Shown here: positions 5,259 through 49,380 of the stretch, piece after piece
How the letters are laid out: each line of letters opens with the position of its first letter
How positions within the stretch are numbered: position 1 is the stretch's first letter
Assembly: GCF_029543085.1 (NCBI RefSeq)
Contig: NZ_CP119967.1
Coordinates: 6,331,001-6,395,000 of the forward strand
Reading direction: 5' to 3'
DNA: 64,000 nt
Origin: Pseudomonas sp. A34-9
Lineage (GTDB): Bacteria > Pseudomonadota > Gammaproteobacteria > Pseudomonadales > Pseudomonadaceae
The notes under the pieces: model-generated
What the model was told of the DNA's origin: nothing
Database searches by the model: none
The model's input: only the letters and a program-made list of their open reading frames with translations
Made by a program: the position numbers and the translations under genes

Positions 5259-5267
5259 CTCCATCCC

Positions 5268-5354: not shown

Positions 5355-5369
5355 GGAGATAGCGAGGAG

Positions 5370-31454: not shown

Positions 31455-31480
31455 ATGATTTACGGGCCTGATTGAATATG

Positions 31481-31506
31481 AAAAAAGGGACGTTCAGTCC
31501 CCTTCC
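31481..31506 (-). terminator. Terminator with GGGGACTGAACGTCCC stem (copy 3)
   Basis: The stem follows the stop of the gene at 31522 on the minus strand, with AAGGGG before and TTTTTT after. One loop base differs from copies 1 and 2. It also lies just upstream of the 30336-31454 gene, so that gene probably has its own promoter or depends on readthrough. Confidence 0.7.
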
Positions 31507-31521
31507 TGAATATTCCCTGCC

Positions 31522-31953: not shown

Positions 31954-32005
31954 ACCGAATATTCCTTTAGCGGTTTCATGAGTATCAGCAAACTATTCGG
32001 GCCTG

Positions 32006-32764: not shown

Positions 32765-32766
32765 GT

Positions 32767-33615: not shown

Positions 33616-34150
33616 AGACGATCCTCTTCACCGCCAGGCTTTCTGACATTAACTGTCTCTTCGTAACGCCATAGGCATCGATCAGCCCTTCCCGAGATCC
33701 CTTCGAACCAAAGGAGCGTTGGTTACTATCGAAGCTGTATTGCTCCAATCGTCCTGTTGTCGAGTAATAGCCGTGCCACTCCGCGCAGGCACCACAACCG
33801 CCATAGCCGCCTATAGAAACAAGACTGTCCTTGGTGCCTTCCACACAATCCATCGCCACAACAACATTGCTCAACATCTTCGTCCTCGCACCGTCGGAAG
33901 TGAGCTGTGAAACTTTGCCGATATCGCGTCGAAGCACTTTGCCGCCGATGTTGATGGTCTGGTCGGAGCAGACCGGGATGACGTGGGTTTCCGCACCATC
34001 CACCGTCACCGATCGGCACGACGAAACCAACACCACTTCAACACCGCCACACTGCATGACATCGCGCTGGGTGTAAGCATCCGTCGGCGCGGCTAAGGTT
34101 GGGGAAGAGAACAACCATGCCAGCCACCCGGAAAACAAAAGTTGATTCAT
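33602..34150 (-). CDS. Predicted exported Cys-rich protein, 182 residues
   Basis: I set the start at MNQLLFSGWLAWLFSSPTLA (34150), which gives a signal peptide; upstream codons in the frame look noncoding. The mature protein has about six Cys, including SIGGYGGCGACAEWHGYYS with a CGAC pair, and the pattern MQCGGVEVVLVSSCRSVTVD. It is likely periplasmic with disulfides. No family is recognised. It lies 19 bases behind the next gene upstream in the run. Confidence 0.65.
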   Translation of the reverse strand: MNQLLFSGWLAWLFSSPTLAAPTDAYTQRDVMQCGGVEVVLVSSCRSVTVDGAETHVIPVCSDQTINIGGKVLRRDIGKVSQLTSDGARTKMLSNVVVAMDCVEGTKDSLVSIGGYGGCGACAEWHGYYSTTGRLEQYSFDSNQRSFGSKGSREGLIDAYGVTKRQLMSESLAVKRIVYGQP

Positions 34151-34169
34151 TGAGAAATCCTTTTCGCCG

Positions 34170-34541
34170 TTAACCAGCCTGCTGTTCCGCCAAGCACTTC
34201 GCATAGCCGTCCGCAAACTTGGCATCGAATGACAATGCCACTGGCTCCTCCAACTCCGCCGAGCTATTGAGCAATACACGGGTAGCCGGGGTGTATTTGA
34301 TCCAGCCAATCGTGCCGGCGCCGTCGGTGTCGAAAAACAGCTGAGCGCGCACTACTTCACCGTCGTCCTCGTCGATCAGCAAATTGACCTTGTCCTTGCC
34401 GACATAACGAAAAGGAAAATCGCTGCTCCTGACAAGCTCAGTAAGGTAGCCGTAGCAACTCCCTTCGCTGGCAATAGCGGGCAGTGAATGAGGTAATAGC
34501 GAAAGCGCGATCAGCACAGGTCGAATGAAAAACCGGTTCAT
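34170..34541 (-). CDS. Predicted exported protein, 123 residues
   Basis: The start MNRFFIRPVLIALSLLPHSL at 34541 is chosen because a GAGGAG ribosome site precedes it, overlapping the end of the upstream gene, and because it gives a signal peptide ending near AIASEG. The mature protein is acidic and strand-rich (VGKDKVNLLIDEDDGEVVRA, FFDTDGAGTIGWIKYTPATR) with two Cys that could pair. No family is recognised. Confidence 0.65.
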   Translation of the reverse strand: MNRFFIRPVLIALSLLPHSLPAIASEGSCYGYLTELVRSSDFPFRYVGKDKVNLLIDEDDGEVVRAQLFFDTDGAGTIGWIKYTPATRVLLNSSAELEEPVALSFDAKFADGYAKCLAEQQAG

Positions 34542-34545
34542 CCAC

Positions 34546-35052
34546 TCACTCCTCATCCATCGGCGAGGATTCCACATCGGTCATGCTCATCAGCCGGAAT
34601 TCGTTGTTCACAAACTCGTAGTAACGATCCCGGTTACCGCTTTCCAACGCATTCCCTTGGACGTCCTCTTCACCGTCGAGCGTGATGCCGGAGACAATGA
34701 TCAAGCGGCTCTCGGGCTGGTAAACCATGCCGAAGGTGCTGCCGTCGTAAGCATTGGGCAGACCGCCAACGACTTCACCGGTCTGGGCGTCCAGCACTTC
34801 GCCGCAAATCGCGCTGCCGCCACAGCCGAGCCTGTGCAGGATGTAATGGCCGGCGAAGTTGACCTTGCCTTTCAGGGCTTTCACCCGTGCCTGATCCATC
34901 ATTGGGCTGCTGTTTTCTTGCGGCACCAGTTTATGGTTGGAGCCGGTGAAAACTGGCGTGACGGTGTAATCCTTGAAGGCTGGATCGGCGGCGAATGCCA
35001 TGGACGCGGCAGCCAATATCAAGCTGCCGAGAAGCACTGAAAATCCTTTCAC
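34546..35052 (-). CDS. Predicted exported protein with NFAGHY signature
   Basis: This 168-residue protein has a signal peptide ending at AMAFAAD. Its mature part contains VNFAGHYILHRLGCGGSAIC, then DAQTGEVVGGLPNAYDG, and LIIVSGITLDGEEDVQGNAL. I have seen the NFAGHYILxxxGCG pattern in uncharacterised periplasmic proteins of many proteobacteria; its function is not known to me. It is four bases before the next gene in the operon. Confidence 0.7.
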   Translation of the reverse strand: MKGFSVLLGSLILAAASMAFAADPAFKDYTVTPVFTGSNHKLVPQENSSPMMDQARVKALKGKVNFAGHYILHRLGCGGSAICGEVLDAQTGEVVGGLPNAYDGSTFGMVYQPESRLIIVSGITLDGEEDVQGNALESGNRDRYYEFVNNEFRLMSMTDVESSPMDEE

Positions 35053-35087
35053 GTAGTAACTCCGTAAATGCAGTGGGGACCGTCGAC

Positions 35088-35597
35088 TTACTCAGACTGC
35101 CCTTCATAACGCTGTGTCTGCGGATTGAATTGCCACCGATGGGGACGGGTCATGGCCTCTTTGCCCTTGTAGCGGATCTGGCCGCGCTTATCCCGGATGT
35201 AGGAGTAAATCTCGATGTCTTTTACATCGCCGCCGTTATTGGGCGAACCGTCCAGAACTTTTATCTCGGCGAAATAATCGCCCCCTACATGCTTCAAGTA
35301 ACCGTGGCACTGGATGAGGAAGGCGAAGGTCGAATCACCCGCTGAACCGCGGCTTGAGTAAGAGGTGAAAATGAAGTCTTCCTGGCCGTCATCATTGAGA
35401 TCGCCGCGGTACACCACCTTGCCCTCCTCCAGACTGAATCCATCAGTCTGAAGACTTGAATGTATGTCCAAGACGTAATCGGGTCTTTCCACCCATTGCG
35501 AGAGAAAATTCTTCGTATCGGTCTCCGAATTGCACAGATCCGTCGCCATGCTCACCATCGGCAACCAGGCCATACACATCAACAACAGTCGTTTCAC
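35088..35597 (-). CDS. Predicted exported protein with FG-GAP-like calcium motif
   Basis: This 169-residue protein has a signal peptide (MKRLLLMCMAWLPMVSMATD). A GDLNDDGQEDFIFTSYSSRG segment near residue 65 resembles FG-GAP or EF-hand type calcium loops (DxNxDG). The start overlaps the stop of the 816-residue fusion gene by four bases (ATGA), so it is translated in concert with that gene. That coupling is the best clue that the exported proteins belong to one operon with the two enzymes upstream. Confidence 0.7.
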   Translation of the reverse strand: MKRLLLMCMAWLPMVSMATDLCNSETDTKNFLSQWVERPDYVLDIHSSLQTDGFSLEEGKVVYRGDLNDDGQEDFIFTSYSSRGSAGDSTFAFLIQCHGYLKHVGGDYFAEIKVLDGSPNNGGDVKDIEIYSYIRDKRGQIRYKGKEAMTRPHRWQFNPQTQRYEGQSE

Positions 35598-38044
35598 TTC
35601 GCATCCTTCGAATTCATCAGTTCCAACTCACCATCCCGATACACCACCTCACACCCCACCCACGCCGGATCCACCTGCGGTATCACCGCCGAAGGCTTGC
35701 GCAGCTCCCGCAACAACGTCGAGCCATGCGACAAGCGCCCACCCATCCGCGCAATCACCGCCCGCGCTGTTTGGTAGTGCGCGTGCCGCCCCGGATCGAG
35801 GGTGTCTTCGAGCAGGATGTCGGCGCCGAGGATGCCTTGCACCTGCCCCGGATAAATCATGAACCCGGTGGCCTGCTCAGCACCTTCGCGACCGTCCTGC
35901 CAGAAGCTGCCGTCTCGGGCGCGCACATCCGGATGCGGCGCGAACCAGTGCTCGCGGTCGGCTAGGGGCATGGCATGGTGGAGACGGAAGAAGATGCGCA
36001 TCAGGTTGTCGCGGTACCACTCGCGCACTTGCAGGTAGTAACCACGCAGGCCCGGCAGGCCGGTCGCGTTGGCGAGGCGGATCAGCCCTGACCATTGTGG
36101 GAATGGTTGTAATGGCAGCTCACTCGACGCGGGTCTAGGGGTGGCCGGATCGGTCTCCCAAGGCAATCGATGCGGACTGTTTTCAAGATTGTCGTAAGCC
36201 GTCGGCGGGCGTCCGAGCCAATCGCCGCCGCTACTCGCCAGCGCCGTGGCGATGCACAGATTGCCTTGCACCACGAATACGTAAAACCGGGTGAACCAGT
36301 CCGCCAGTTGTTGGCCATCGGCAGCCTGGGCGACGAGTTCTGCGAGTTCCTGATCAAAGCGCTGCAAGCCACTTTCCAGATTCAGCAAATGCCCGCGAGC
36401 CTTGCGTTGCATACGCAAAAACAGCGGCAACGAACGCAGCATCTTCAGCGGTTGCCACGGCAGATGCGGAGTCGCGCCACCGACTTCACCAGCGTAGTTA
36501 CTCGCGCTAATGCCCCAGTCGGCCAGCCGGGCGAGAAACAGATCATTGTTGATGTAGGACGCGCCGCCGAACACCGCGGTGAACGGCTCGTTGTCCTGCA
36601 GCACCCGCGCATCCCAACGCGCCATGATCGCCGGAATACTCGCGGCGGCTCGGCGTTGGGCGTATTCCACCAGTACGCTCGGTTGTGGCGGCAGGATCTC
36701 GGCGATGTTGGCGGCGGTCAGGTGCCGGCGCCAGCCGTAGTCGCTGATCGGCCGGTATTGCAGCAACCACAATTGCGAGCCGTCCCAGGCCCATTCGACA
36801 TCGCCGGGCACGTAGTGGAATACGCGCAACACGTCTTGCAGAAACTGCCACAGCAGCGCTTCGGTCAAACCGTGGGACGTGGTGAACGTGCAGCTGCGCC
36901 AGGCATCACCGAGCCGCGACAGCGTCGCCCGATCAGGGCTGACGTGACCGTCGGCCAGCGACTCCAGATGGCCTTCAACCCATTCCAGCTCCACCGACAG
37001 ATGCCGGACAAACGCGATGCCGGAAACCAGCGGCGTGATGAAGCGCTGCACCACTACTTCCTCGACGCCTGCGGCGGTCAGTTCGGCGATGCGCGTCGGC
37101 ACGTTGGCGCGCGGCACGCGCAGATAAGTGGTGGTCAGGCCGGCATTCGCCGAGTCGGCCTGATCTTCGCCATAACTGGAGGAGCGCACCGCCCAGGTCA
37201 CGTCGGGTTGGGCGGCGAGAAACGCAGACAGACGCGGATCATCGCAATCGTTGAGGGTCAGCGCCGCCGGCACCGGTTGCCGGGCCAGTTCAGCGAGGCG
37301 CAACCGACCGCCCTTGGTGTGCGCGACAAATCCGCGCTCGCCGGACTCCAGCCACGCGGCAAATTCTGCCGGCGCGTCAATCCACGGGTAATGGCCCCAA
37401 CGGGGTTTGAGGCTGATGGTCAGATCGGCGCGAGCCAGAATCGCTGACCACGCCGCCGCTTGCTCGATGCCCAACACGTTGTCCTGATCGCCCCAAACCA
37501 GCTCGACCGGATCGGTGATCCACTCCAGCAGCGGCAGCGCAGTATCGGCGCGAACCAGATCCCAATGCGGCACAAACGCACGGCAGCGCGCATAGCCGGC
37601 GCCCATGCGCTGGTACTGCGCGGGCGTCCAGGTCTGGTTGGAAAACTTGCGGGCGAATAGCGTGGGTTTGTTTGACAGCAGCCAGTGGATGGTCTTGCGA
37701 ATCGGCAGTGGCGACATCAGTGCCGGCAACCGCCGCTGCCACAGAAAAGCACCGACCGGCGCCAACAGAACACTACGAGAAAAATGTCCGGGCCGACGTT
37801 GCAACGCGTGCAGCACCAGCAACGCATTGACTCCGACCGCCATGATCGCGCTGCCCTTCTGCGTCATCGCCAGTAAGGTCTGCGCGTAGTCCGCCAGATC
37901 CTCGCAGGGCGGTTGCGGGTTGGTGCCGAAGCCCGGCAACTCCAGCGGCACCACGTCGTAGCGCTGAAAGTGCGGCAACGCGTCATCCCACCAATCAGCG
38001 GCGCTGCCGTTGCCGGCCAGCAGGTACATCAAGGGCTTGCTCAT
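35594..38044 (-). CDS. Fusion: degenerate alpha/beta hydrolase + PEP synthase-like ATP-grasp and phosphohistidine domains
   Basis: This is an 816-residue cytosolic protein. Residues 1-230 form an alpha/beta hydrolase fold (LAGNGSAADWWDDALPHF, acid region VELVWGDQDNVLG, His region RWGHYPWIDAP). The nucleophile elbow, normally GxSxG, reads AVGVNALLV with Asn73 in place of Ser, so classical esterase activity is unlikely. From about 270 there is a PPDK/PEP-synthase ATP-grasp part (AVRSSSYGEDQADSANAGL; VVVQRFITPLVSGIAFVR; WLLQYRPI). The C-terminus has the swivelling PEP-utiliser domain with catalytic His773 in GGRLSHGSTLLRELRKPSAV. It may transfer phosphate between ATP and a small molecule; the substrate is unknown. 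It lies nine bases behind the epimerase gene. Confidence 0.72.
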   Translation of the reverse strand: MSKPLMYLLAGNGSAADWWDDALPHFQRYDVVPLELPGFGTNPQPPCEDLADYAQTLLAMTQKGSAIMAVGVNALLVLHALQRRPGHFSRSVLLAPVGAFLWQRRLPALMSPLPIRKTIHWLLSNKPTLFARKFSNQTWTPAQYQRMGAGYARCRAFVPHWDLVRADTALPLLEWITDPVELVWGDQDNVLGIEQAAAWSAILARADLTISLKPRWGHYPWIDAPAEFAAWLESGERGFVAHTKGGRLRLAELARQPVPAALTLNDCDDPRLSAFLAAQPDVTWAVRSSSYGEDQADSANAGLTTTYLRVPRANVPTRIAELTAAGVEEVVVQRFITPLVSGIAFVRHLSVELEWVEGHLESLADGHVSPDRATLSRLGDAWRSCTFTTSHGLTEALLWQFLQDVLRVFHYVPGDVEWAWDGSQLWLLQYRPISDYGWRRHLTAANIAEILPPQPSVLVEYAQRRAAASIPAIMARWDARVLQDNEPFTAVFGGASYINNDLFLARLADWGISASNYAGEVGGATPHLPWQPLKMLRSLPLFLRMQRKARGHLLNLESGLQRFDQELAELVAQAADGQQLADWFTRFYVFVVQGNLCIATALASSGGDWLGRPPTAYDNLENSPHRLPWETDPATPRPASSELPLQPFPQWSGLIRLANATGLPGLRGYYLQVREWYRDNLMRIFFRLHHAMPLADREHWFAPHPDVRARDGSFWQDGREGAEQATGFMIYPGQVQGILGADILLEDTLDPGRHAHYQTARAVIARMGGRLSHGSTLLRELRKPSAVIPQVDPAWVGCEVVYRDGELELMNSKDAK

Positions 38045-38053
38045 GGACGATCC

Positions 38054-39448
38054 TCAGGTCAGATCGCGCAGAGCAGCGTCGAGGGTTGGATAACGGAATG
38101 TATAACCGGCTTCGGTCAAACGCTGCGGCACCACACGCTGGCCGTCGAAGAACAGCTGAGCCATTTCCCCGGCCAACGCACGCACTGGCGCGTCGGGAAT
38201 GTGGAACCACACCGGGCGCTTGAGAACCTTGCCGGCACGGGCGGCGAACGCTGCCTGACTGACCGTTTCGGGCGCGACCATGTTGTAAGTGCCGACCAGA
38301 CTTTCATCGTCGAAGGCCCGTGCGATCACCTGAAGCACATCGTCGCGATGCACCCAGCTCATGATCTGCCGACCATCGCCCATGCGTCCGCCGAAGCCCA
38401 GGCGGAACGGCAGCAGCAACGGCGCCAACGCACCGCCGGGGCCGAACACTACGCCGAGGCGCAGCACCACCTGACGCACGCCAAACTCGGTGGCCGGTTG
38501 CGCGGCGACTTCCAAACGCGCACAGAGTTCGGCCATGAAACCGTCGCCCTTGCAGGCGTGTTCGTCGAGGCTTTCGCTGGCATCGCGCACGCCGTAAAAA
38601 CCGATGGCCGAGGCTTGAATCCACAGCGCCGGTTTTTGCTTGGTGTTCTGCAACCAGGTCATCAGCGCTTCGGTGGTGCCGACTCGGCTGGCGAGCAGTT
38701 GCGTCTGACGCTTGGGGCTCCAGCGCGGGCCGGCGACGGGTGCGCCGGCGAGGTTGATCACCACGTCGAAGGTTTCATCGTGGCTGAGTTCGCTTAGGGA
38801 CTGCACGCTGCGAACGCGCCCGTCGAACAGATTTGCTGCTTTCAATGGATCACGTGCCAGCACACTCACGGTGTGGCCGGCGTCGAGTAATTGATTGACC
38901 ACGGCCTCGCCAATAAACCCGGTGCCGCCGGTGATTAGCACGCGCTTGTAGGCGATCTCGGCAAAGGGGTTGGGCTTGCTCGACGTCTTGATTGAAGGGG
39001 ATTTTCGGCGGTCATGGCGGTACAGCCAAATCAGCGGCGGCAACAGCAGCAACAGTGCAAAACCGTCGAGCCACAGGTGCGACCAGACCTGTTGTTGCGC
39101 CGAGAGCCACATGTCCTGCGGCGCCCATAACAGGATGCCCGCGATCAACCAGCCCCAGACTGCCGGGGATTTCAAGCGATTGCCCAGGTGCACCAGCGCG
39201 AGCATGTACAGCGAATAACTTTGCAGCGTCGCGCCGAACAGCGCGAGCCACCAGACTTGTTGTTCGTGGCCGGCGGTGGGCACCGCATCGGCGCCCCAGA
39301 ATGCGAGTTCGAGGGTTTGCAGATAGCCGTCGAGTAATCCGGAGTGACCGGCCCAAGTCAGGGTGAGACCGGCGAGAATGTGCACGATTGCGGCGGCGTA
39401 TAACCAGAGCACTAACGCGCGGCGAAGGGAGATCGAGGGGGCTGGCAT
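38054..39448 (-). CDS. TIGR01777 epimerase with N-terminal membrane domain
   Basis: This 464-residue protein has four or so N-terminal membrane helices (DoxX-like region, about residues 10-135) followed by an extended SDR domain. The Rossmann motif is VLITGGTGFIGEAVVNQLLD. Family TIGR01777 hallmarks are INLAGAPVAGPRWSPKRQTQ, SAIGFYG and FRLGFGGRMGDGRQIMSWVH. TIGR01777 proteins are widespread; one plant member is a cell-division-related factor (SulA homologue), but bacterial functions are unclear. I took the ATG at 39448 because AGGA lies six bases upstream; an ATG six codons earlier (39466) has its AAGGA directly adjacent. It begins the operon with the fusion gene. Confidence 0.8.
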   Translation of the reverse strand: MPAPSISLRRALVLWLYAAAIVHILAGLTLTWAGHSGLLDGYLQTLELAFWGADAVPTAGHEQQVWWLALFGATLQSYSLYMLALVHLGNRLKSPAVWGWLIAGILLWAPQDMWLSAQQQVWSHLWLDGFALLLLLPPLIWLYRHDRRKSPSIKTSSKPNPFAEIAYKRVLITGGTGFIGEAVVNQLLDAGHTVSVLARDPLKAANLFDGRVRSVQSLSELSHDETFDVVINLAGAPVAGPRWSPKRQTQLLASRVGTTEALMTWLQNTKQKPALWIQASAIGFYGVRDASESLDEHACKGDGFMAELCARLEVAAQPATEFGVRQVVLRLGVVFGPGGALAPLLLPFRLGFGGRMGDGRQIMSWVHRDDVLQVIARAFDDESLVGTYNMVAPETVSQAAFAARAGKVLKRPVWFHIPDAPVRALAGEMAQLFFDGQRVVPQRLTEAGYTFRYPTLDAALRDLT

Positions 39449-39560
39449 TCCGTGTCCTGAGCGCATTCCTTGGGGGTGGGGAGTTTAAAGGAAAATCGCG
39501 GTCGTCAGATGCTCAAGTATTAAACGTTTAAGCGCCGCGGATTCTGGCTCAGCGCATATG

Positions 39561-39652: not shown

Positions 39653-41077
39653 CTAAAAACAGCTGCTGGCCACTATCGGTTCGGCCACTTCGGACTGAAG
39701 TCGCTTAATCGCATTGATGCCCGAGTCGTTACCTTTGTCGGCAGCAAGCTGATAACAGGCCAAGGCGCGAGGAGTATCTTTCTTTCCTAGATCGCCGCTT
39801 TTCCAATAATCGCCTAACGAAACGAATGCGTGCGTTGATCCCATGGTGGTAGCACGAATCAACTCTTTTTCAACGTCCAGCGGGCGCTGGCAGGGTCCTG
39901 AACCGGCCAATTCATTGCCAAAACAATAGAAGCCAGCCAACGACTCAGCACCGCTCGGTGAATCAACGGCTGCTGCTTTGAAAAGAGCCTCAACTTTGCC
40001 GTATTCCAATTGCGGGGCCATACCCGACAGACTCAGCCCAGCCGCAGCCGAACTAGATATAGGATCGCCTGAAGCGGCCGCGCACAGGTAATTTTCCAAA
40101 GTCGCCTCAAAAAGTTCTCCTGTCAGCCGGTATTGCTCAAGGCCGCCCAAGCCAGCAAATCCTTGTCCGCGCTGCCAACAGAAATTCTCTGCACGACTCA
40201 TTTTCCGCGTGCTGGCTACAGAAAGCTCTTTTTCAGGAATCGACCAGTCCTCAACCCCATCAAGCGTCCAGCAGGACTTCCGAGAAAAGTTGAAAATCTT
40301 GATATTGCTGTTGCCGGCGCGTTTATCCACAACGTTAACGTGGCGGTCATCCACCTTCTCGATCTCTATTCCTTCCACTTTCCCATCGGGCACAGCCACC
40401 ATTAAGGGAAACGCCATATCGCGTCCCACCTCCGCAGTAACGTAAGTCACAATCCGCCCTATATCCGACGTCCCCTTTAATACCAGCAGCTTCACGGCCT
40501 GTGCAGTTAGTCGCTTCTGCGATTCGGCATTAGCGGAGAATGCTGGAAGAAACTGTGCAAAGTCTTGCGTAGGGCACGAGCCACGTCCAATTGTCGGGCC
40601 ACTCCCGGTATCGGACGCGATATTGTCCAAAAACACTGAACGGTCACGACTCATACTGGCGATGCAATTGTTCACCGCTGCCACATGCACCGAAGAGCCC
40701 GGTTCCGTCTCCAACGCATCGACCTGGCAATCGGTATCGCGCAGTTTGATCCAAGCGCGCTGAGCCTCCTGAACCGTTGCCTTTTGCCTCGCCGCAAGAA
40801 CTGGATCAGTTTGATACCCACCCTCGAGCCGAACCATCAGTTCTTGATAACTGGTATTCAACTGCTTATCTGCAGCAACCTTGGCACTCACAGAACATCG
40901 TTCACTCTGTGAGTTCGTAGTGATATCGGCACATGCATCGTCAGCAAATGCATGTCCCCCCAACAGAGATAAACCACCAATCAGCACGGCGGGCAGCACC
41001 GGAATAAGATATTTACTCAAGGCAAATTCCAACAATTTTTTGCGAAAGTGTATTTTTAAGTCGTGCTTATTCTTCAA
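39653..41077 (-). CDS. Exported LprI-domain protein with Sel1-like repeats
   Basis: This 474-residue protein has an N-terminal signal (hydrophobic residues about 24-43, ending GGHAFADD) and an LprI/DUF1311 domain (about 47-155) with the core ADKQLNTSYQELMVRLEGGY, QRAWIKLRDTDCQVDALETE and VNNCIASMSRDRSVFLDNI. It has a middle region of unknown fold (GKVEGIEIEKVDDRHVNVVD), then C-terminal Sel1/TPR-like repeats (ALACYQLAADKGNDSGINAI). Its LprI domain closely matches that at 32006. The predicted periplasmic location and adjacency to a lysozyme-like effector make a lysozyme inhibitor or immunity role likely. Its start overlaps the upstream gene by 11 bases. Confidence 0.75.
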   Translation of the reverse strand: MKNKHDLKIHFRKKLLEFALSKYLIPVLPAVLIGGLSLLGGHAFADDACADITTNSQSERCSVSAKVAADKQLNTSYQELMVRLEGGYQTDPVLAARQKATVQEAQRAWIKLRDTDCQVDALETEPGSSVHVAAVNNCIASMSRDRSVFLDNIASDTGSGPTIGRGSCPTQDFAQFLPAFSANAESQKRLTAQAVKLLVLKGTSDIGRIVTYVTAEVGRDMAFPLMVAVPDGKVEGIEIEKVDDRHVNVVDKRAGNSNIKIFNFSRKSCWTLDGVEDWSIPEKELSVASTRKMSRAENFCWQRGQGFAGLGGLEQYRLTGELFEATLENYLCAAASGDPISSSAAAGLSLSGMAPQLEYGKVEALFKAAAVDSPSGAESLAGFYCFGNELAGSGPCQRPLDVEKELIRATTMGSTHAFVSLGDYWKSGDLGKKDTPRALACYQLAADKGNDSGINAIKRLQSEVAEPIVASSCF

Positions 41078-42206
41078 GGGAGATAGCCATTTTCAGAGTA
41101 GATCCATTCAGATAAACGACTGCTTCGCGCCCATTAATATCGACAGGGGTAGGATTCTGGATCATTCCTTCATCACTAGCCTTCGCAATTTTTGTTAACG
41201 TCTTATCCGCAACATTGGCACGCCAAATAGTTTCATCACCATTCTTGAAATAAAACGTCGGCCGTGACTTGCTCCAAATCGGAGCATATATATTCCAACT
41301 GGCCTCGGGCCGACCAGCCTGCGCTATCGTTTCATACCCTGAGGTGTGCGAGTAGTACGCTTGCAATTTTCCATACTCACCACCCCAACCGAATGTCAAA
41401 CCACTAACAGCATTTTCATCAGTATTTGGCCACTGCTGGAACAGCAAACTGCTTTCCAATGGCGGAGATTTTGAGCCGAGCTTATAAACCATCCCCCGCA
41501 GCTGATTCTTGGAGAGCTGCTGTCGATAGTAAAACGCCCCATCCAAGATTCCCGCGAATCTTTTCCCTTCGTCGTTTGAACCCAAACTCAAAGCACCATC
41601 AAAACCGATATCTTTCGCAATCGTGTGCAATACCGGCCTGTCGTTGCGATCAACGTACTCATATAGATTACCCCGGTACGCAATCATCGCCGCATCAAAA
41701 TGCCCTTCAAACACGATGACATGCAACATGCCTGAAATTGTTTCAGCTGAGATCAAAAATCGTTCGACAGCCCCTTTTTCATTGGGAAGCCCTGTTAAAT
41801 CAATGACCTTCCATGAGCGCTCAAACTGTGTGTACGGCTTATCACCCAACATTAACTTAATATCTTTCTGAGTTGGCCTAGGCGCAATAGAAACCGGTGT
41901 GAGAAAGCTTATCTGCTGAACATAAGCTTCCTCTAAACACTCGACTGACTCACAAGAATTACGCTCTGACTCAAGCCAATCACTTTCGATTATTTGCAAG
42001 GCTCGCCGATGTTTTATCGGTTTGAAGACCTCACCTAGCTTTTCATCCATTACCGACAAAGAAGGAGAACTACAAATTTTCCTCTCTACGTCCGTCGAAG
42101 CTTTGCCACATTCGAAACTCGCAGAAAACGCCACCGAACTGAAAAACAAAAAGGCTAACGGTAAAAAGCCAGGGAGCGAATATATATTTTTCATTGAATC
42201 AGCCAT
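41067..42206 (-). CDS. Exported protein with N-terminal LprI-like domain, 379 residues
   Basis: The signal peptide covers hydrophobic residues about 10-28. The mature N-terminus, SFECGKASTDVERKICSSPS, with LSVMDEKLGEVFKPIKHRRA and SDWLESERNSCESVECLEEA, is the typical Cys-bearing DUF1311/LprI beginning. The remainder (IYAPIWSKSRPTFYFKNGDE, NGREAVVYLNGSTLKMAIS) has no family I recognise. No good ribosome site is seen at ATG 42206 or at the ATG four codons in, so the start is uncertain. AT content is higher than in the core genome. It overlaps the 39653 gene end. Confidence 0.68.
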   Translation of the reverse strand: MADSMKNIYSLPGFLPLAFLFFSSVAFSASFECGKASTDVERKICSSPSLSVMDEKLGEVFKPIKHRRALQIIESDWLESERNSCESVECLEEAYVQQISFLTPVSIAPRPTQKDIKLMLGDKPYTQFERSWKVIDLTGLPNEKGAVERFLISAETISGMLHVIVFEGHFDAAMIAYRGNLYEYVDRNDRPVLHTIAKDIGFDGALSLGSNDEGKRFAGILDGAFYYRQQLSKNQLRGMVYKLGSKSPPLESSLLFQQWPNTDENAVSGLTFGWGGEYGKLQAYYSHTSGYETIAQAGRPEASWNIYAPIWSKSRPTFYFKNGDETIWRANVADKTLTKIAKASDEGMIQNPTPVDINGREAVVYLNGSTLKMAISLEE

Positions 42207-42270
42207 CGAAGAAATTTTCCCACCACGAAACGGATACGTTTACGCTCCGCCTCAAAATCAAATAATTTTG

Positions 42271-42293
42271 GCGCAAAAAATAAATCCGTCCCC
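42271..42293. repeat. Direct repeat GCGCAA.AAATAAATCCGTCCC (copy 1)
   Basis: Copy 1 reads GCGCAAAAAATAAATCCGTC followed by CCC. A near-identical copy lies at 43269-43290. Both lie shortly 3' of exported-protein genes on the minus strand. In the 185-base gap 42207-42391 I see no separate gene. Confidence 0.6.
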
Positions 42294-42391
42294 TTTCACA
42301 CGTAAAGGAAATAGCGCAAAAAAGAGAAAGAAAAGTTTGTTCATGCTCATCCAAGTCGACGCTTTCGCGCGAATGCACTGGCTTGTCCGTT

Positions 42392-43141
42392 TCAACGTCT
42401 GCTCTTGTCCGGAGCCAAAGCCAATTGGCGAGCACGCTCTATCGTCGCGCGAATTAGGCAGGCATCGGACCACTCACCGAAAACTGATTTATGCAATTTC
42501 GGGTCGGCTTGGCACTCCGCATCTCGAAATTTCATCCAGGCTCTTTGAGTTTCCCTCAGTGCTTTCTGACCGCTTTCGTCCAGCCGACTCATACGATCCC
42601 GATATACAGAATTCAGCAATGCATCCGCATCAGGAACCATCAGATCAATTACACCATTTCCCGAGGGAAACCACTCAACGTCCGCCAATGCCTGTTCGCT
42701 CTCATTGTTCCAATTGTAGAGGCCGTTTTCTTCGATCTTCAGTGTGGCGGATCGCTGATGGTGATTCGTCGGATCGCTCTCGCTGACCTCCGAGCGATAA
42801 ACAATTTCCAAATAGATAGGGTCGGTTGTGCGCTGAGGATCATTCAATAGCGTTTGCCGAACAATGGCCCGTTGCTTATTGCTCTCAGTGATCTCTATCG
42901 AAAAGCATGGATCCGGCCCAGGACGTTCTGCGGACGCCTTCCTCTCCAGGCATCGATTACGAACCGCCATGGAAGGGGTATCCGAACCGCCACCCACATC
43001 AACGACTCTGACAAGCAACCGGACTTCCGGATCCTTGGAAAAGTCGGCCTGAAGGATGGTGGCAATCATCGTGCCCTCAGCCATGACCACAGGCGACAGT
43101 ATTGAAAGTAAAAAAATGAGGCTGAATCTGAAAATCTGCAT
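42392..43141 (-). CDS. Exported protein with C-terminal LprI/DUF1311-like domain
   Basis: This 249-residue protein has a signal peptide (MQIFRFSLIFLLSILSPVVM, cleavage about residue 21). The N-terminal half is strand-rich without a family match. The C-terminal half carries LNSVYRDRMSRLDESGQKAL, RETQRAWMKFRDAECQADPK and WSDACLIRATIERARQLAL, a full LprI/DUF1311 core with Cys pair, placed at the opposite end from its neighbours. It is the second gene downstream of the effector and a plausible lysozyme inhibitor. Confidence 0.72.
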   Translation of the reverse strand: MQIFRFSLIFLLSILSPVVMAEGTMIATILQADFSKDPEVRLLVRVVDVGGGSDTPSMAVRNRCLERKASAERPGPDPCFSIEITESNKQRAIVRQTLLNDPQRTTDPIYLEIVYRSEVSESDPTNHHQRSATLKIEENGLYNWNNESEQALADVEWFPSGNGVIDLMVPDADALLNSVYRDRMSRLDESGQKALRETQRAWMKFRDAECQADPKLHKSVFGEWSDACLIRATIERARQLALAPDKSRR

Positions 43142-43268
43142 TCCTTGGCGTCCGTAAAAAACTCAGTGATCCGTTCAATTCTGAAAGAGCCTGCGACAGA
43201 AGATAGAGTCAGAACCGACAAACGGGCCAGATCTATTTAAGTTCTCAACCAAATTCAAAGCGATCGAG

Positions 43269-43290
43269 CGCAACAAATAAATCCGTCCCG
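43269..43290. repeat. Direct repeat GCGCAA.AAATAAATCCGTCCC (copy 2)
   Basis: It reads GCGCAACAAATAAATCCGTC followed by CCG. It lies seven bases 3' of the 43297 gene stop and matches copy 1 at 42271-42293 in about 20 of 22 bases. On the minus strand it is GGGACGGATTTATTT, a motif I have seen as a dispersed element in gammaproteobacteria. Confidence 0.6.
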
Positions 43291-43296
43291 TTTTCC

Positions 43297-43908
43297 TCAA
43301 AGATTTTCTCTCATGTCCATGCACTCCCTCGCATCCGCGAGGACTTTGCGCTCACCATTATTGAGGACGCACACAGGTTTTTTGAAGGTGCCTTTCATCT
43401 TTTGACAGACCGTGCTACCCGCTTCCTTATAAACACATTGCTCACCAGAAATGATCAACTCTTTACCTGGAGTCAAAGTCACAACTTTAGTACTTTCAAT
43501 ACGGTAAACGTTCTCGTAAATTGAATCACCGGACTGTTGAATATCTTTATAGGTACCATCCTCCAACTCCGAAGAACTAGCAGGGATGTCTCCGATATAT
43601 GTGGCTTTTCCACCTTTAGCTACAGCAGAAAAAATCATAACCTGAGCGTTTAGGCCCATATCATCACTGGTTGGATAAGAAAATATAATTGCTACATTTT
43701 CGGCCCCTGCCACTTCTCTAACAACATAATCTGACCGACATCCGCGATCAGCATTATCAAGAGAGAAGACTCCCCCTTCAAAAGAAAGAGTCAAGCTAGC
43801 TTGATCGGCATTCTGATCAGCTTCTTTACATATCAGGCTATGCTCAGTTGAAGCCGAATAAGCAGCGCCACTATAAATGGACAACAAAAACACCATTAGG
43901 CGAATCAT
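43297..43908 (-). CDS. Predicted exported protein; leading candidate for cognate immunity to the effector
   Basis: This 203-residue protein has a signal peptide (MIRLMVFLLSIYSGAAYSAS). The mature part is strand-rich with six or seven Cys (SLICKEADQNADQASLTLSF, RGCRSDYVVREVAG, GEQCVYKEAGSTVCQKMKG), consistent with periplasmic disulfides. It starts ten bases after the effector stop, with the TGAGG ribosome site overlapping that stop. This is the usual place for an immunity gene against a periplasm-acting T6SS effector. No family is recognised, so immunity is inferred from position and export. Confidence 0.7.
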   Translation of the reverse strand: MIRLMVFLLSIYSGAAYSASTEHSLICKEADQNADQASLTLSFEGGVFSLDNADRGCRSDYVVREVAGAENVAIIFSYPTSDDMGLNAQVMIFSAVAKGGKATYIGDIPASSSELEDGTYKDIQQSGDSIYENVYRIESTKVVTLTPGKELIISGEQCVYKEAGSTVCQKMKGTFKKPVCVLNNGERKVLADARECMDMRENL

Positions 43909-43918
43909 TCAAATGACC

Positions 43919-46273
43919 TCAGAAAAATTTTAGAAGCTTATTTGTCATTGTTTCACGAGCCGAGAAGTTCGCAGCAGCCGGCCAGGGATGAGCAGCATCG
44001 GTCCCGACTAAAGAACCGTCACCCCTAATACGGCGAGTCATTTGGGGTATGTCATTAGAGTCGGCAATTCCCAGCAATTTGTTTTTCGCCCAAAACCAGC
44101 CAGCCGTATCAATACAGGTGAAGGGCTCATCTTTTACACGATCAGGATTAACTATAATAGGCGGTCTGATTTGCGCATCCAGTTGTGCAATTGTGGCAGC
44201 ATTTTGAATTGGTAGCGTCGCAGTCTGCGCGCCAGTAACTGTAGGTCCAGAAATGGTAATACCCCACCAAGAAGTGTGTTTCCACCAGTTATTTGAAAAA
44301 GTACTAGCTTGCAGCCACCCTCTGTAAACCCAATAGTTTGCATAGTTTGCCCTGCCTGTAAGCTGCTTCAAACCACGCCCTCTAAAGTCCCCACCATCAT
44401 TGTATTTTATATTACCGAGCCAACCATTATAATTTTTGGCGCTGGCATAACGCCTAAAATAATCATGTGGTGTACCATTGTATAGTTCAGATACTGTATT
44501 GAGCTGACCAGACTCCACTCCTGCCTGCCCAAAAAAGTGAGAGCGTCTCAAGCGGCCAACTATTAGATATTTAGCAAGTGTTTTATTTATGTGGACAATA
44601 TATTTATTAATGTTTGCATCGGACGCGGCCGGGTAAACCCCCTTCATATCGCTCTTGGTAAGCCAACCACACTGGCTGAAGGTACGGATAAATTCTTTAG
44701 GAGGAAAATGCCAATGCATATGATCGATCCCTACCAATGCTGCCTCCTCCCAGAATCCCAAGGCTTGCTGGTGAGACTTCAACTTTGCGTATTGATCTTC
44801 CGGCAGCGGACCGCCCTCCGCAACCTTCTTTAACCAATCATATCGAGTATCAAAGTCATTTCTACACCACTCACTTGGGAATTTGCACACTAGTCGCTTT
44901 ACACGATCTTGAACTTCAGACTTTTCAAGTAATGACTGCGTCAACTGGCGCTCTGCGACGTATCTAGTTGAAAGATCCTGCTGCTCATTAGCCGAAAGAG
45001 TTGCATATGCGGGAGATTTGGCGATGCTAACAGCATCTAGATTATCAGAAACGACTTTACCAGCATCCAAATTTAATACAGCTCGGATGAATTGAGATTG
45101 GCAGTGGCTATCAGCGTCTGTATCGTCATCTACTAACTGCCACCCTTGCCAATGCGGAAAATCTGCATCGCTAAATTTAGTCACAGAAAAAGAATTGAGA
45201 TCTATCCAACCAGCCTTACTTTCCTCACCAGTTTTTCCTGGAATTTTTATTTTCCGCCAATGGGCCGCATCAGCTGGCATAAGTTGGTCACCGCTCAACA
45301 CTCTACCGAACCTAAGCAGTTCGAATCCCGCGCTAGGCGACTTTGGAAACTTTTCGGTCGCTGTGTTATATAGGTCGTATTCATAACTACCACTCTCGGC
45401 CTGCGAGCCTAGCTCAAAGCCAGAATGGCTATATGTAGTAAGCTTGCACTGCCCTTTGGCGTAACTCATCCTAAGGAACATGCCATTTTGCAGCTCCGAA
45501 GCTAACGACCAATCATACCCCTGAACTGAATCGTTGACATTTGATGTGGGCGCCCCAGCTTCCTGAATCGGGGCTGGCCCCGAAGGCATGGCGGGGCATC
45601 TATATACAACGGGAGAATCATTCTGTGCTGATAGAATATTATTTGGCGCTCTTTCATAAATAAGAACCTCTGGAGGAATAAAAAAATAAGTATCTCCCCA
45701 AACGCAATCTGAGCGCCCATGACCTGTCTGAAATTTTAAATCCCTTTCTTTCCTACCTACTAGATTCTCAATTTGGCCTTGATCAGCGACTACTTCAAAA
45801 TGAATTCTCCCGCTCTCTCCATATATACTACCCGCCTCACCAATTTTATCTTTACGGGCAATCGCTTTACCCTTCTGTGGCGCTGCAATTAATATTTTCG
45901 AAAGGTGCATGTAAATAGAAAAAAATACGACCTTCGCCTTTTCGCCTTCACCTATTTCTGTTTCATGTCGAATAACCACACATCCGTCATCAGTCCATTT
46001 GTTCCGATAGCGTAATGCATGATCTGGAGGCGCAGTGCTTTCAAGGGTAGGCTGACGAAAATAAACCAGAGTGCCATCTGAGATAGCCTTTACGGGCAAT
46101 GTACCCCCTCCTTCTTGAGGAGCAGTTAGATGGATGCCACCATGCCAATTAAGGTCAAAACTCAGCGGATAACCACCATCACCAGGAATGCCACCCACCA
46201 TGGCACGTGCCAGATAAGCGTCGTCGGTTTCACCCGCCACTGGAGCAGGAATAAAGGGAGGGCTAATGATCAT
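43919..46273 (-). CDS. Putative T6SS peptidoglycan-hydrolase effector (M23-like + GH19 lysozyme-like)
   Basis: This is a 784-residue protein without a signal peptide. Residues about 40-165 resemble an M23 peptidase: LNWHGGIHL, FFSIYMHLSK and ESGRIHFEVV. His44, His123 and His158 match family positions, but the usual Asp is His48 and the first His of HxH is Arg156, so activity is doubtful. A middle region has SH3-like segments (AAHWRKIKIPG). From about 500 there is a GH19 chitinase/lysozyme-type domain: HFFGQAGVESGQLNTVSELY, with Glu587 and Glu596 as candidate catalytic acids, and FRGRGLKQLTGRANYANYW. Position directly after vgrG, lack of signal, and exported neighbours fit a T6SS effector acting on cell wall. 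Base composition is markedly AT-richer than neighbours, suggesting transfer. Confidence 0.8.
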   Translation of the reverse strand: MIISPPFIPAPVAGETDDAYLARAMVGGIPGDGGYPLSFDLNWHGGIHLTAPQEGGGTLPVKAISDGTLVYFRQPTLESTAPPDHALRYRNKWTDDGCVVIRHETEIGEGEKAKVVFFSIYMHLSKILIAAPQKGKAIARKDKIGEAGSIYGESGRIHFEVVADQGQIENLVGRKERDLKFQTGHGRSDCVWGDTYFFIPPEVLIYERAPNNILSAQNDSPVVYRCPAMPSGPAPIQEAGAPTSNVNDSVQGYDWSLASELQNGMFLRMSYAKGQCKLTTYSHSGFELGSQAESGSYEYDLYNTATEKFPKSPSAGFELLRFGRVLSGDQLMPADAAHWRKIKIPGKTGEESKAGWIDLNSFSVTKFSDADFPHWQGWQLVDDDTDADSHCQSQFIRAVLNLDAGKVVSDNLDAVSIAKSPAYATLSANEQQDLSTRYVAERQLTQSLLEKSEVQDRVKRLVCKFPSEWCRNDFDTRYDWLKKVAEGGPLPEDQYAKLKSHQQALGFWEEAALVGIDHMHWHFPPKEFIRTFSQCGWLTKSDMKGVYPAASDANINKYIVHINKTLAKYLIVGRLRRSHFFGQAGVESGQLNTVSELYNGTPHDYFRRYASAKNYNGWLGNIKYNDGGDFRGRGLKQLTGRANYANYWVYRGWLQASTFSNNWWKHTSWWGITISGPTVTGAQTATLPIQNAATIAQLDAQIRPPIIVNPDRVKDEPFTCIDTAGWFWAKNKLLGIADSNDIPQMTRRIRGDGSLVGTDAAHPWPAAANFSARETMTNKLLKFF

Positions 46274-46313: not shown

Positions 46314-48350
46314 TCAAAGCGAGAAAGGGTAATCAACTGTCGGCTTAACCTTCTCAGGCACCGCATTCCCCAACGCCTGATCCATCAAACTCCCCGCCTT
46401 ATCCTTATCCGCCGCCCCCGGCAGCACCGGCGGTTTAATCCCGATCCCTGTGCCGGAGCCAGCCGAGCCACCCGCGTTGATTTTGATCACCGGCCCAACC
46501 ACCGTCACGCCACCGCCATCGAGCTTGATAAAGCTCCCACCCCCAAGAATGGTCAGCTCCGTCCCCGCCTCAATAACAATCTTGTCCCCAGCCTTGAGGT
46601 GAATCTCTTTGCCCACACTGGTCAGTTGCGCAGTCCCCAACTTCACATGCTGGTTCTGCCCAACCGTGAGGTGATCATCCAGCTTCGCTTCAACCTTGCG
46701 GTCGGAGATCGTGGTGCGGTGTTCTTCGGCCTTCAGCTCGGTGTAGGTGTTCTTCACCACCGTGTCATGACGTTCATTCCCGACCCGAATCTTCTGATCG
46801 TGCTCAATGTTTTCATCCCAATCACGCTGGGCATGAATGTAGATCTGCTCCGCACCTTTCTTGTCTTCGATGCGCAGTTCGTTATACCCACCACCACCCG
46901 GCGAGCTAAGCGTTTTGAAGACGCTGCGGGTTTTGTTTGCCGGCAAGGCGTACGGCACCGGGTTTTCCTTGTGGTACAGGCAGCCGGTGACGAGGGGTTG
47001 GTCGGGGTCGCCTTCGAGGAAGGTGACGAGGACTTCCATGCCGATGCGCGGGATGGAGATGGCGCCGTAGCGGTCGCCGGCCCAGGAGCTGGAGACGCGC
47101 AGCCAGCAGCTGGTTTTGTCGTCGGCGAGGCCTTCGCGATCCCAGTGGAATTGCACTTTGATGCGGCCGTATTGGTCGCAGTGGATTTCTTCGCCTTTGG
47201 GGCCGGTGACCATGGCGGTCTGGCTGCCGAGGACGCGTGGTTTCGGGTGTTCGAGGGCCGGGCGGTAGAACACGTCCCACGGGGTGGCGAGGAAGGTGTT
47301 GCGGTAGCCCTGATGGAAGTCGTCCTTGTTGTCGGTGGTGTCGCTGGTCACGCCTTCTTCGAGGACTTGCGGCTGTTTGCCTTCGTGGAAGATTTCGGTG
47401 AGCAGCCACAGGTCGTTCCACTCGCTGCGCGGGTGGTCGGACAGGGCCATGAAGTGGCCGCTGACCAGTTTGGTCTGGTCGCCGCGACCTTCGGCCTGAC
47501 GGTAGTCGGCGCGGTGGCGTTCGAGGGCGCGCTGGCTGAGGAACTTGCCACGGGCGCGGTCGATGAAGCGACCGGGGTAGTCGTAGTCTTCCAGATCTGG
47601 CTCAGTGCTCTCGCCTTCGGGTTTGTACGCGGATTCCATTTGCAGGCGCGGTTTTTCGAAGTCGTAGTCGCGGCGCGTGGTGCGGCTGGTGCGGGTTTCC
47701 AGGCGCAGTTTGAAGCCTTTGATCACCGGTTCTTCGGCGATCATGCCGCTGCCTTGCACATACGCGGTCGGCTGGCCGAGGTCGGGGAACACGGTCTGGT
47801 CGTCGCCGAACACCAGCAGGTGGCCTTTGTCGCTGTGCTGGAAGTGGTAGTGAATGCCTTCCTCTTCGCACAGGCGCTGAACGAAATGCAGGTCGGTTTC
47901 GTCGTACTGCACGCAGTAGTCGCGATCCGGGCACGGCTGGCTGAGCTGGAAGCTGTAGGCGTTGCCCTTGATGCCGTGCTCTTCGAGGATCAGCGCGATG
48001 ATTTTCGGCGCCGACATCTGCTGGTAGATGCGCTGGTTGGTGCGGTGATGCAGGTATTGCAGTTGCGGCACCATCGACACTTTGTAGCGGGTCAGGCGCT
48101 TGCCGGCATCGCCTTGGGCGACGCGGTAGATCTGCCCGTGGATGCCCGAGCCTTGTGGATCGAATGCGAGAAACGCCTGTTTGTGCAGCAGTTGTTCGAG
48201 GTCCAGATCAGGGTTTTCGCTGACCAGTTCGAGGTCGAAACGATACGGCTGGCTGATGCCTTCGGTGCCGGTGAACGACAGCACTTGCAGGTCGCCCACG
48301 TAGTCTTCGACCTTGAGGCTGAAGTGGGTTTCGTTAGCTGGGTTGAACAT
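46314..48350 (-). CDS. vgrG: Type VI secretion spike protein VgrG
   Basis: This 678-residue protein forms the trimeric tip of the T6SS needle. The gp27-like N-terminus begins FNPANETHFSLKVEDYVGDL. The gp5 OB-fold shows CDQYGRIKVQFHWDREGLAD, SCWLRVSSSWAGDRYGAISI and PRIGMEVLVTFLEGDPDQPL. The C-terminal beta-helix with DUF2345-like part (VEAKLDDHLTVGQNQHVKLG) ends in a short Gly-rich tail without an extra toxin domain. The ATG at 48350 matches the standard start. It lies 28 bases behind the kinase gene and 40 before the effector, the order expected for a dedicated vgrG-effector pair. Confidence 0.95.
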   Translation of the reverse strand: MFNPANETHFSLKVEDYVGDLQVLSFTGTEGISQPYRFDLELVSENPDLDLEQLLHKQAFLAFDPQGSGIHGQIYRVAQGDAGKRLTRYKVSMVPQLQYLHHRTNQRIYQQMSAPKIIALILEEHGIKGNAYSFQLSQPCPDRDYCVQYDETDLHFVQRLCEEEGIHYHFQHSDKGHLLVFGDDQTVFPDLGQPTAYVQGSGMIAEEPVIKGFKLRLETRTSRTTRRDYDFEKPRLQMESAYKPEGESTEPDLEDYDYPGRFIDRARGKFLSQRALERHRADYRQAEGRGDQTKLVSGHFMALSDHPRSEWNDLWLLTEIFHEGKQPQVLEEGVTSDTTDNKDDFHQGYRNTFLATPWDVFYRPALEHPKPRVLGSQTAMVTGPKGEEIHCDQYGRIKVQFHWDREGLADDKTSCWLRVSSSWAGDRYGAISIPRIGMEVLVTFLEGDPDQPLVTGCLYHKENPVPYALPANKTRSVFKTLSSPGGGGYNELRIEDKKGAEQIYIHAQRDWDENIEHDQKIRVGNERHDTVVKNTYTELKAEEHRTTISDRKVEAKLDDHLTVGQNQHVKLGTAQLTSVGKEIHLKAGDKIVIEAGTELTILGGGSFIKLDGGGVTVVGPVIKINAGGSAGSGTGIGIKPPVLPGAADKDKAGSLMDQALGNAVPEKVKPTVDYPFSL

Positions 48351-48378
48351 AAAGTGCTCCCTGTTCGAATGTCGTCCG

Positions 48379-49380
48379 TTACGCCCGAAGTCGCAACCGT
48401 TGCAGCCAGGACGAAGTGGCGCCCAAGGCGTCACGCAATTGTTGGGCAGTGATGCTGCGTTCTGCCGGGTCGAAGCTCAGCGCGGTTCGCAGCGCTGGCC
48501 AGCTGTGTTTGGGTAAGTTCGCCGGCGCTTGCAGCTCGCGCTCCAGGTGCTCGTCGCGGGCCTGGATCGAGGGCAGGCGGCGGAACGGGTGTTTGCCGCC
48601 CGCCAGTTCATAGATCACGCAGGCCACGCCGTACACGTCCGCGCTGGCCGACAACGGTTGGCCCTCAAGCAGTTCGGGGGCGGCGTAGCCCGGGGTCCAG
48701 GCGTTGAAGCGTTCGCGGCTCAGGTGCGGCAGGCCGGGCAAGGTGCCCTCCTCTGCCTGGCCCAAGCCGAAGTCAAAGAGGCGCAGGCCGTCTTCGCTGA
48801 GCATGACGTTGCTCGGTTTCATGTCACCGTGCAGCACGCCGCGACCGTGGGCGTAGGCCAGCGTATCGAGCAGCGGCAGGACGATGTCGCGCAGTTCTTG
48901 CCACGGCAGGCCGAGGGGCCGCTCGCAGAGCAATTTGTCCAGGGTCAGGCCACGCATGTATTCCATGGTGATGAAGGCCCGCTGGCAGTCGGTGTCGACT
49001 TCAAAGGTGTGCGCACGCACGACGTTGTCGTGGCGCAGGCGTCGGGTCAGGGCGAACTCGCTGTAGAGCAAGGCACTGGCGTCCGGCGATTCGGCAAATT
49101 CTTCGCTGAGGATTTTCAGCGCAATGTAAGGATCGGGATCACCGAACTGTTCGTGCAGCAGATCCCGCGCCCGGTAAACAGCGCCCATGCCACCGGCCCC
49201 GAGCAGGCGCTCGAGGTGGTAGCGACCGGCGAGTACATCCGGCAGTGCACCGATGCTGGCCTTGGTTGGCGCCAGCAAAGGCTCTGCTTTGTTCTCCTTG
49301 GCGAAGGCGAAGTAGGTCAGGTTGTTGGCCTGTTCTTCGCTCATCAGCAAGTCATCGATTGGCGATTCGATATTGGTCAT
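48379..49380 (-). CDS. T6SS-associated serine/threonine protein kinase (Stk1/PpkA type)
   Basis: This 333-residue protein has a kinase domain from about residue 53: Gly loop LLGAGGMGAVYRARD, Lys89 in YIALKIL, catalytic loop VLHGDMKPSNVML (Asp186; HGD in place of HRD), and DFG at 203-205 in LFDFGLGQ. It lacks the transmembrane and periplasmic part of PpkA and so resembles the shorter Stk1 encoded in the P. aeruginosa H2 cluster. It should act with the phosphatase on the FHA protein to control assembly. ATGA overlap with the phosphatase gene upstream indicates coupling. Confidence 0.92.
   Translation of the reverse strand: MTNIESPIDDLLMSEEQANNLTYFAFAKENKAEPLLAPTKASIGALPDVLAGRYHLERLLGAGGMGAVYRARDLLHEQFGDPDPYIALKILSEEFAESPDASALLYSEFALTRRLRHDNVVRAHTFEVDTDCQRAFITMEYMRGLTLDKLLCERPLGLPWQELRDIVLPLLDTLAYAHGRGVLHGDMKPSNVMLSEDGLRLFDFGLGQAEEGTLPGLPHLSRERFNAWTPGYAAPELLEGQPLSASADVYGVACVIYELAGGKHPFRRLPSIQARDEHLERELQAPANLPKHSWPALRTALSFDPAERSITAQQLRDALGATSSWLQRLRLRA

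Follow-up and report, generated by a model that had tools for sequence, protein, structure and literature searches.

What are the exported LprI-domain proteins encoded behind a type VI secretion system (T6SS) effector of Pseudomonas sp. A34-9 directed against: that effector, or another one? The locus lies in a 64,000-nucleotide stretch of this genome (the window; contig NZ_CP119967.1, positions 6,331,001 to 6,395,000), and its minus strand carries, in order, a PpkA-like kinase gene, vgrG, the effector gene, four genes termed i1 to i4, two conserved genes, and a second run of exported-protein genes reaching down to 30336. The source genome is a single contig of 6.54 Mb, and three of its six matches to the LprI family (PF07007) fall inside the window. 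A first-pass annotation of this DNA had described an effector followed by an array of exported, LprI-bearing proteins, and this description holds: PF07007 matches the C-terminal part of i2 and the N-terminal part of i4, and i3 has a divergent N-domain. With a probability of roughly three in four (0.76), we read the locus as a T6SS effector-exchange site with orphan antidotes, in which the LprI genes would be among the leftovers and i1 would be the effector's own antidote. The features on which this reading turns are:

43919..46273, minus strand: effector, 784 amino acids (aa), which reads as WHIX subclass I with one C-terminal toxic head (WHxxxH motif; C-terminal head similar to endolysin PWe2, 1.8e-13)
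43297..43908, minus strand: i1, likely cognate immunity gene of the effector, not LprI (homologs directly behind the effector in L056 and L037; effector stub upstream in L067)
42392..43141, minus strand: i2, N-domain of no known family plus C-terminal LprI (PF07007, 2.7e-13, 50.7 bits; 44 proteins found in the search)
42422..42631, minus strand: LprI domain of i2, residues 171-240 (Pfam)
41067..42206, minus strand: i3, with a divergent, LprI-like N-domain and a C-domain that is all-beta and possibly propeller-like (model with predicted local distance difference test score 81; propeller matches of low template-modelling (TM) score)
41901..42125, minus strand: LprI-like domain of i3, about residues 28-102 (sequence and model)
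39653..41077, minus strand: i4, in which LprI is joined to module Y (a beta domain of NTF2-like/DUF4348 type and Sel1 repeats)
40637..40933, minus strand: LprI domain of i4, residues 49-147 (PF07007, 1e-14)
39656..40582, minus strand: module Y of i4, residues 166-474 (independent E-values of about 1e-111 to 4e-120 in seven loci)
32006..32770, minus strand: LprI_32006, LprI (residues 16-133) fused to module Z (residues 136-248)

LprI proteins and pesticin-type heads

The comparison panel comprised loci from genomes of the genus together with 35 contigs picked by having i4 (L052 to L086). For each vgrG, the gene directly after the effector was designated +1 and any gene before the effector -1, which gave a cognate-position set of 47 +1 genes and 13 -1 genes, the window's own genes and products of at least 400 aa being excluded.

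Relative to the Pfam cut-off of 22 bits, PF07007 scores 50.7 bits in i2, 55.2 in i4, and 58.6 in LprI_32006, the last of which also matches a solved DUF1311 protein (PDB 3gi7, 2.6e-9). For i3, there is no Pfam match, and alignment to LprI with hhalign was negative; the N-domain nevertheless appears to be a divergent LprI relative, as suggested by a BLASTP match to a PF07007 protein (2e-11) and by weak PF07007 matches in three of nine members of its family. Its C-domain is tentatively modeled as a beta-propeller, with TM values to known propellers of about 0.1-0.4.

Clustering was done on 47 effectors by their last 210 residues (the C-head). All seven whose +1 gene is of the LprI type (3) or of a second type, Z (4), make up one cluster of seven (7/7), and every member of that cluster matches Pfam Pesticin, in four cases above the cut-off and in three below it. 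None of the other +1 or -1 genes among the 60 matches the LprI or Z profiles at 1e-2, and therefore LprI or Z stands at +1 behind none of the 31 effectors in the C-head cluster of the window effector. A survey of Pesticin (PF16754), which is present in 47 of 398 genomes of the genus (53 matches listed, 30 examined as loci), gave a similar pattern: the +1 gene of 15 pesticin-headed effectors (longer frames, 282-1010 aa) is LprI in 11 cases and Z in three, with one exception, and none of 15 short stand-alone pesticins has LprI or Z within 1.5 kb. LprI may thus be the usual antidote to pesticin-type lysozyme heads of T6SS effectors in this genus. The first-pass annotation had aimed the LprI array at the adjacent GH19 effector, an assignment that the pairing of LprI and Z with pesticin heads (7/7, against 0/31 in the window's cluster) and the tie of i1 to that effector do not support. 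Its broader idea of stacked immunity to lysozyme-like effectors, as opposed to a single immunity protein, is retained in the form of an orphan-immunity array, the proposed targets being effectors of other strains.

No PF16754 match was found in the window's genome, and a search of that genome for an effector combining an N-terminal head with a pesticin head returned a sole, weak match, the window effector itself. The lack of a Pesticin match makes it most likely that the LprI genes of the window face an effector that the strain does not have; as leftovers, they would block a pesticin-type head injected by a rival strain. Separately, in another genus of the class (L148), an LprI-like gene lies downstream of a sub-threshold pesticin match (5.7e-10).

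The probable cognate antidote and a displaced effector

Sequence search found no solved relative of i1, and its assignment draws on gene position in relatives. In L056 (90%) and L037 (32%), it matches the gene that stands at +1 to an effector of the same type; the L037 locus carries an effector 60% identical to that of the window, then the i1 homolog, and none of i2 to i4. In L067, a different effector is followed by an exported +1 gene, a 58-codon stub of a window-type effector, and homologs of i1 and i2, each at 96%. At 83% identity, the stub covers the window effector's residues 727-784, and it immediately precedes the i1 homolog. Taken together, the +1 homologs behind the same effector type and the stub before i1 indicate that i1 is likely the partner, and thus the own antidote, of the window effector.

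Because L067 has the window-type stub and i1 behind a different effector, it reads as a snapshot of effector displacement; its 1.8-kb stub segment is 95.5% identical to the window, and its outer flanks are 88-90% identical. Stubs of other effectors are present in L040, L042, L062, L065, and L080. In the order of events that we propose, a new effector-immunity cassette would recombine in, and the old effector would be cut away while its immunity gene remains. Repeated exchange would pile antidotes downstream of the effector, until they flank both sides of the two conserved genes.

Array genes as orphan immunity candidates

A second cluster of exported proteins, at 30336-35597, lies past the two conserved genes, and seven of its eight members match cognate-position immunity genes elsewhere. 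Besides LprI_32006, it comprises:

35088..35597, minus strand: x_35088, orphan immunity candidate (+1 homolog in L055 and L067, 3e-46)
34546..35052, minus strand: x_34546, orphan immunity candidate (+1 homolog in L072 and L075, 1e-36)
34170..34577, minus strand: x_34170, exported protein for which no cognate-position homolog was found
33602..34309, minus strand: x_33602, orphan immunity candidate (+1 homolog in L081, 1e-51)
32767..33615, minus strand: x_32767, orphan immunity candidate (+1 homologs in L089, L079, and L068)
31522..31953, minus strand: x143, orphan immunity candidate, 143 aa (+1 homolog in L077, 1.7e-33)
30336..31454, minus strand: x_30336, orphan immunity candidate whose C-terminal part equals the +1 gene of another effector (cognate-position matches)

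The two parts of x_30336 have separate counterparts: residues 231-372 occur at +1 in L052, L054, and L049, and residues 10-215 at +1 in L092. Across both arrays, nine of 12 proteins match cognate-position (+1 or -1) genes of relatives below 1e-5. Control open reading frames from twelve stretches of the genome and the rest of the window gave no match to cognate-position genes at 1e-3 (0/245); 42 of these are exported-like, as called by hydrophobic-stretch scoring, which is not equivalent to a signal-peptide predictor. The comparison of 9/12 with 0/42 yields a Fisher value of 4e-8, which overstates the certainty because the sequences are related.

Array genes are also retained in loci in which the matching effector is not. 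In L052, the effector differs (29-33% identical, in two parts), yet i3 and i4 are 96 and 99% identical to those of the window; L053 (effector 45% identical, with a different +1 gene) and L055 keep i2, i3, and i4, and L067 keeps i1 and i2. The median ratio of nonsynonymous to synonymous substitution rates (dN/dS), computed for nine array genes, is 0.10-0.23, and that of the neighboring epimerase gene is 0.15.

Three further observations concern this cluster and the DNA next to it. The TTG start of x_33602 yields no signal peptide, and the gene probably starts near 34150 instead. A relationship between x_35088 and XAC2610 was considered and rejected (NCBIfam value 0.21, with no such match in a further search). 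Some 250 nt at 29481-29726 are 73% identical to DNA within the immunity arrays of L053 and L055.

Fusion proteins i4 and LprI_32006

Both modules that are fused to LprI in the window occur on their own in relatives. Module Y alone constitutes a 342-aa gene between vgrG and an effector with an N-terminal head in L072, L073, L075, L081, L082, L090, and L094 (1e-111 to 4e-120), and a remoter form of 347-361 aa is present in L062, L070, L086, L093, and L095. When N-heads were clustered over 155 residues at a threshold of 1e-12, which we chose and above which looser settings merge heads, all 12 loci with a Y-type -1 gene shared one N-head cluster, to which none of 36 others belonged. Pfam analysis of nine Y-associated effectors found NlpC/P60 in all four with the remoter Y (L062, L064, L093, and L095), three of these matches being below cut-off. 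Since the NlpC/P60 matches go with the remoter Y, it is the shared N-head cluster that carries the idea of Y blocking an NlpC-type head. Y is accompanied by Z in L090, L093, and L095, and in L134 (1999-3006, effector orientation) LprI and then Z are separate, adjacent genes behind a pesticin-headed effector. The structural model of i4 shows the beta domain and the Sel1 repeats, mostly with confidence. The beta domain is NTF2/DUF4348-like (PDB 3sbu, 1.6e-3; the -1 gene of L059 matches DUF4348 at 1e-3, below cut-off); Tai3/DUF3828 was not among the matches for module Y, which does not exclude kinship.

The proteins AwiU and AwiD have been shown experimentally to bind the N- and C-domains of a WHIX effector (PMC12135965). 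Because the N-domain partner is encoded upstream and the C-domain partner downstream in that system, i4 appears to combine an antidote of the upstream type with one of the downstream type, and LprI and Z of LprI_32006 would, by position, both be anti-pesticin modules. As in polyimmunity proteins, each module of i4 (LprI, Y) and of LprI_32006 (LprI, Z) stands alone in an immunity position elsewhere, by position only. The two proteins thus appear to be fusions of antidotes that relatives make separately, LprI with the N-head antidote Y in one case and with a second anti-pesticin module, Z, in the other, so that a single exported protein may counter the two blades of a double-blade effector, or else two variants of the same blade. 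We put forward tentatively, at somewhat less than even odds, that i4 is a single-chain antidote to double-blade effectors (LprI against a pesticin head, NTF2/Sel1 against an NlpC/P60-like head), and that LprI_32006 stacks two alternative anti-pesticin modules. This proposal, and the exchange-site reading with it, is weakened by three observations: none of the five N-heads examined with the close form of Y has a Pfam match, no effector in the panel has Y upstream and LprI downstream, and the i4 model has low confidence in its LprI part. If the proposal is correct, a strain lacking the effector would survive the whole effector of its rivals by means of one orphan protein, i4, and LprI_32006 would keep resistance robust when pesticin variants switch.

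Alternative explanations

The first-pass annotation implied that all four downstream proteins are co-cognate and act together on the adjacent effector. They do lie on the same strand with short gaps, and in L056 i1 to i4 are kept together with a 95% identical effector. We nonetheless consider this unlikely: the window effector lacks the N-terminal extension that would need Y, no effector of its C-head cluster has LprI at +1, i2 to i4 or i1 and i2 persist beside other effectors as described above, and, of the four, L037 has only an i1 homolog beside the same effector type. Another explanation is that the LprI proteins serve to protect the envelope, whether from lysozyme of the host or the environment or from lytic enzymes of the cell itself, and that their position here is due to chance. 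LprI inhibits lysozyme in Mycobacterium tuberculosis (as cited in PMC8867033), and the array genes are under purifying selection, as such a role would have it. The first-pass annotation had named LprI genes unlinked to T6SS loci as the finding that would speak against its reading. This objection does not hold: across the genus, LprI genes are enriched near vgrG (20 observed, 3.0 expected), though 74 of the 94 sites with LprI have no listed vgrG nearby. This enrichment, the pairing with pesticin heads, and the fusion to the T6SS immunity modules Y and Z make a general lysozyme guard quite improbable. In addition, the LprI domains of i4 and LprI_32006 are closer to the +1 LprI of L059 (47 and 49% identical) than to two other LprIs of the genome (26-32%), though many other +1 LprIs, at 21-45%, are no closer. 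Lastly, the array could be decaying junk hitch-hiking on vgrG exchange. Frame-split copies exist elsewhere (i2 in L064, i3 in L058), and the guanine-cytosine (GC) content of the effector and i1 to i4 is low (0.43-0.52, where vgrG and the two conserved genes have 0.60-0.64); every copy in the window is open, and with the low dN/dS medians given above this makes decay very improbable.

Several results also weigh against the exchange-site reading. Among the 60 cognate-position genes, i3 and x_34170 have no homolog, and i2 matches one weakly (4.8e-4) through LprI alone. Purifying selection would fit a housekeeping role as well. A search of the window's own array for effector stubs found none. The exception to the pesticin pairing is L133, at a contig end; the survey covers 30 of the 53 pesticin matches, and the C-head and pesticin panels overlap, L093 and L135 being the same place. 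In a tree of LprI domains, T6SS and other LprIs are intermingled, with many low-support nodes, and the LprI of i2 falls in no clear group. The choice of L052 to L086 by their i4 content is a selection bias.

Relation to known systems

Orphan T6SS immunity arrays have been described in Vibrio cholerae (Kirchberger et al., 2017; PMC5361080), where a new module likewise takes the place of the former effector while the former immunity gene is kept downstream, and where a shifted-back effector 3' end is also reported. The present locus differs in genus and effector class, in its extension past two conserved genes, and in the fusion of some members. Polyimmunity loci and proteins (Zhang et al., 2012; PMC3482391) share the tandem immunity genes and the several immunity domains per chain; that account names SUKH, SuFu, and Imm families, and LprI, DUF1311, lysozyme inhibitors, and the word "periplasmic" do not appear in its accessible passages. 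The WHIX study (PMC12135965) matches our observations in the WHxxxH motif, the VgrG neighbor, and upstream and downstream immunity for N- and C-domains, and it names LprI/DUF1311 among neighbors and pesticin and GH19 among C-heads; "orphan" there concerns effectors, and a fusion of upstream with downstream immunity is not seen in the available portion of its text. In Salmonella Dublin, the signal-peptide LprI protein of the LysM-LprI pair SED_RS06235/SED_RS06230 is a predicted immunity protein to a T6SS cell-wall effector (PMC8867033), with a single LprI, one effector, and, as far as the excerpted description goes, no array or fusion. TsiP of Aeromonas dhakensis is one immunity protein that blocks both the amidase and lysozyme halves of TseP, as proposed for i4; LprI and DUF1311 do not occur in that paper's text in the form available (PMC11893102).

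Arrays of orphan immunity genes (PMC5361080), polyimmunity proteins (PMC3482391), and a predicted role of LprI in T6SS immunity (PMC8867033, PMC12135965) are thus already known from what these sources present. Exported LprI-based fusions of upstream with downstream immunity modules look like a new form of these: none was seen in the PubMed Central literature on LprI/DUF1311, T6SS immunity, orphan, poly- or dual immunity, WHIX, and pesticin, mostly at the level of listings. LprI, often annotated merely as a lysozyme inhibitor, gains a concrete and testable partner in the pesticin-type heads of Pseudomonas T6SS effectors. The locus would represent a store of orphan immunity genes in Pseudomonas, to which a relative adds a "fossil" effector stub. 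It further suggests that such orphan modules can be joined into antidotes to several heads, a point relevant to how bacteria keep pace with double-blade effectors. Proximity alone is a poor ground for assigning an immunity gene to an effector.

The effector and surrounding genes

46314..48434, minus strand: vgrG, T6SS spike (TIGR03361, 3.1e-205)
46130..46147, minus strand: WHGGIH, the WHxxxH motif of WHIX (residues 43-48), at the start of a weak M23 Pfam match (residues 44-165)
43922..44650, minus strand: C-terminal GH19/endolysin-like head, residues 542-784 (phmmer match to PDB 9ms7 over residues 542-645, 1.8e-13)
35594..39466, minus strand: two conserved genes separating the arrays (epimerase/DUF1731, 38054-39466; hydrolase/PEP-utilizer, 35594-38044)

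WHIX effectors are named after the WHxxxH motif (PMC12135965), which is present in 46 of 48 effectors of the compared loci. The window effector lacks a long extension N-terminal to this motif and therefore reads as subclass I, with a single C-terminal toxic head. That head has no Pfam match to GH19 (PF00182), which was matched below cut-off in three members of its C-head cluster (L062, L082, and L060); its nearest solved relative by sequence is the endolysin (9ms7). An M23 head was considered and rejected, the sub-threshold Pfam match overlapping the WHIX motif. All 35 contigs found with i4 are from Pseudomonas; vgrG lies within the available flank in 32 of them, and the epimerase gene is present in the flanks of 28 of 35 relatives.

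In L087, at 4661-7336 in reverse orientation, the effector of L059 recurs in pieces (97.6-100% identical) that are spread over several frames, which may be an assembly fault. L044 has a tandem pair of vgrG-effector units, with one vgrG split into two frames. In L055 (2031-6767) and L067 (2521-7245), the same site holds a C-terminally longer VgrG (815 and 811 aa) and a different effector of 590 aa; these effectors are without WHxxxH, and that of L055 matches PG_binding_1.

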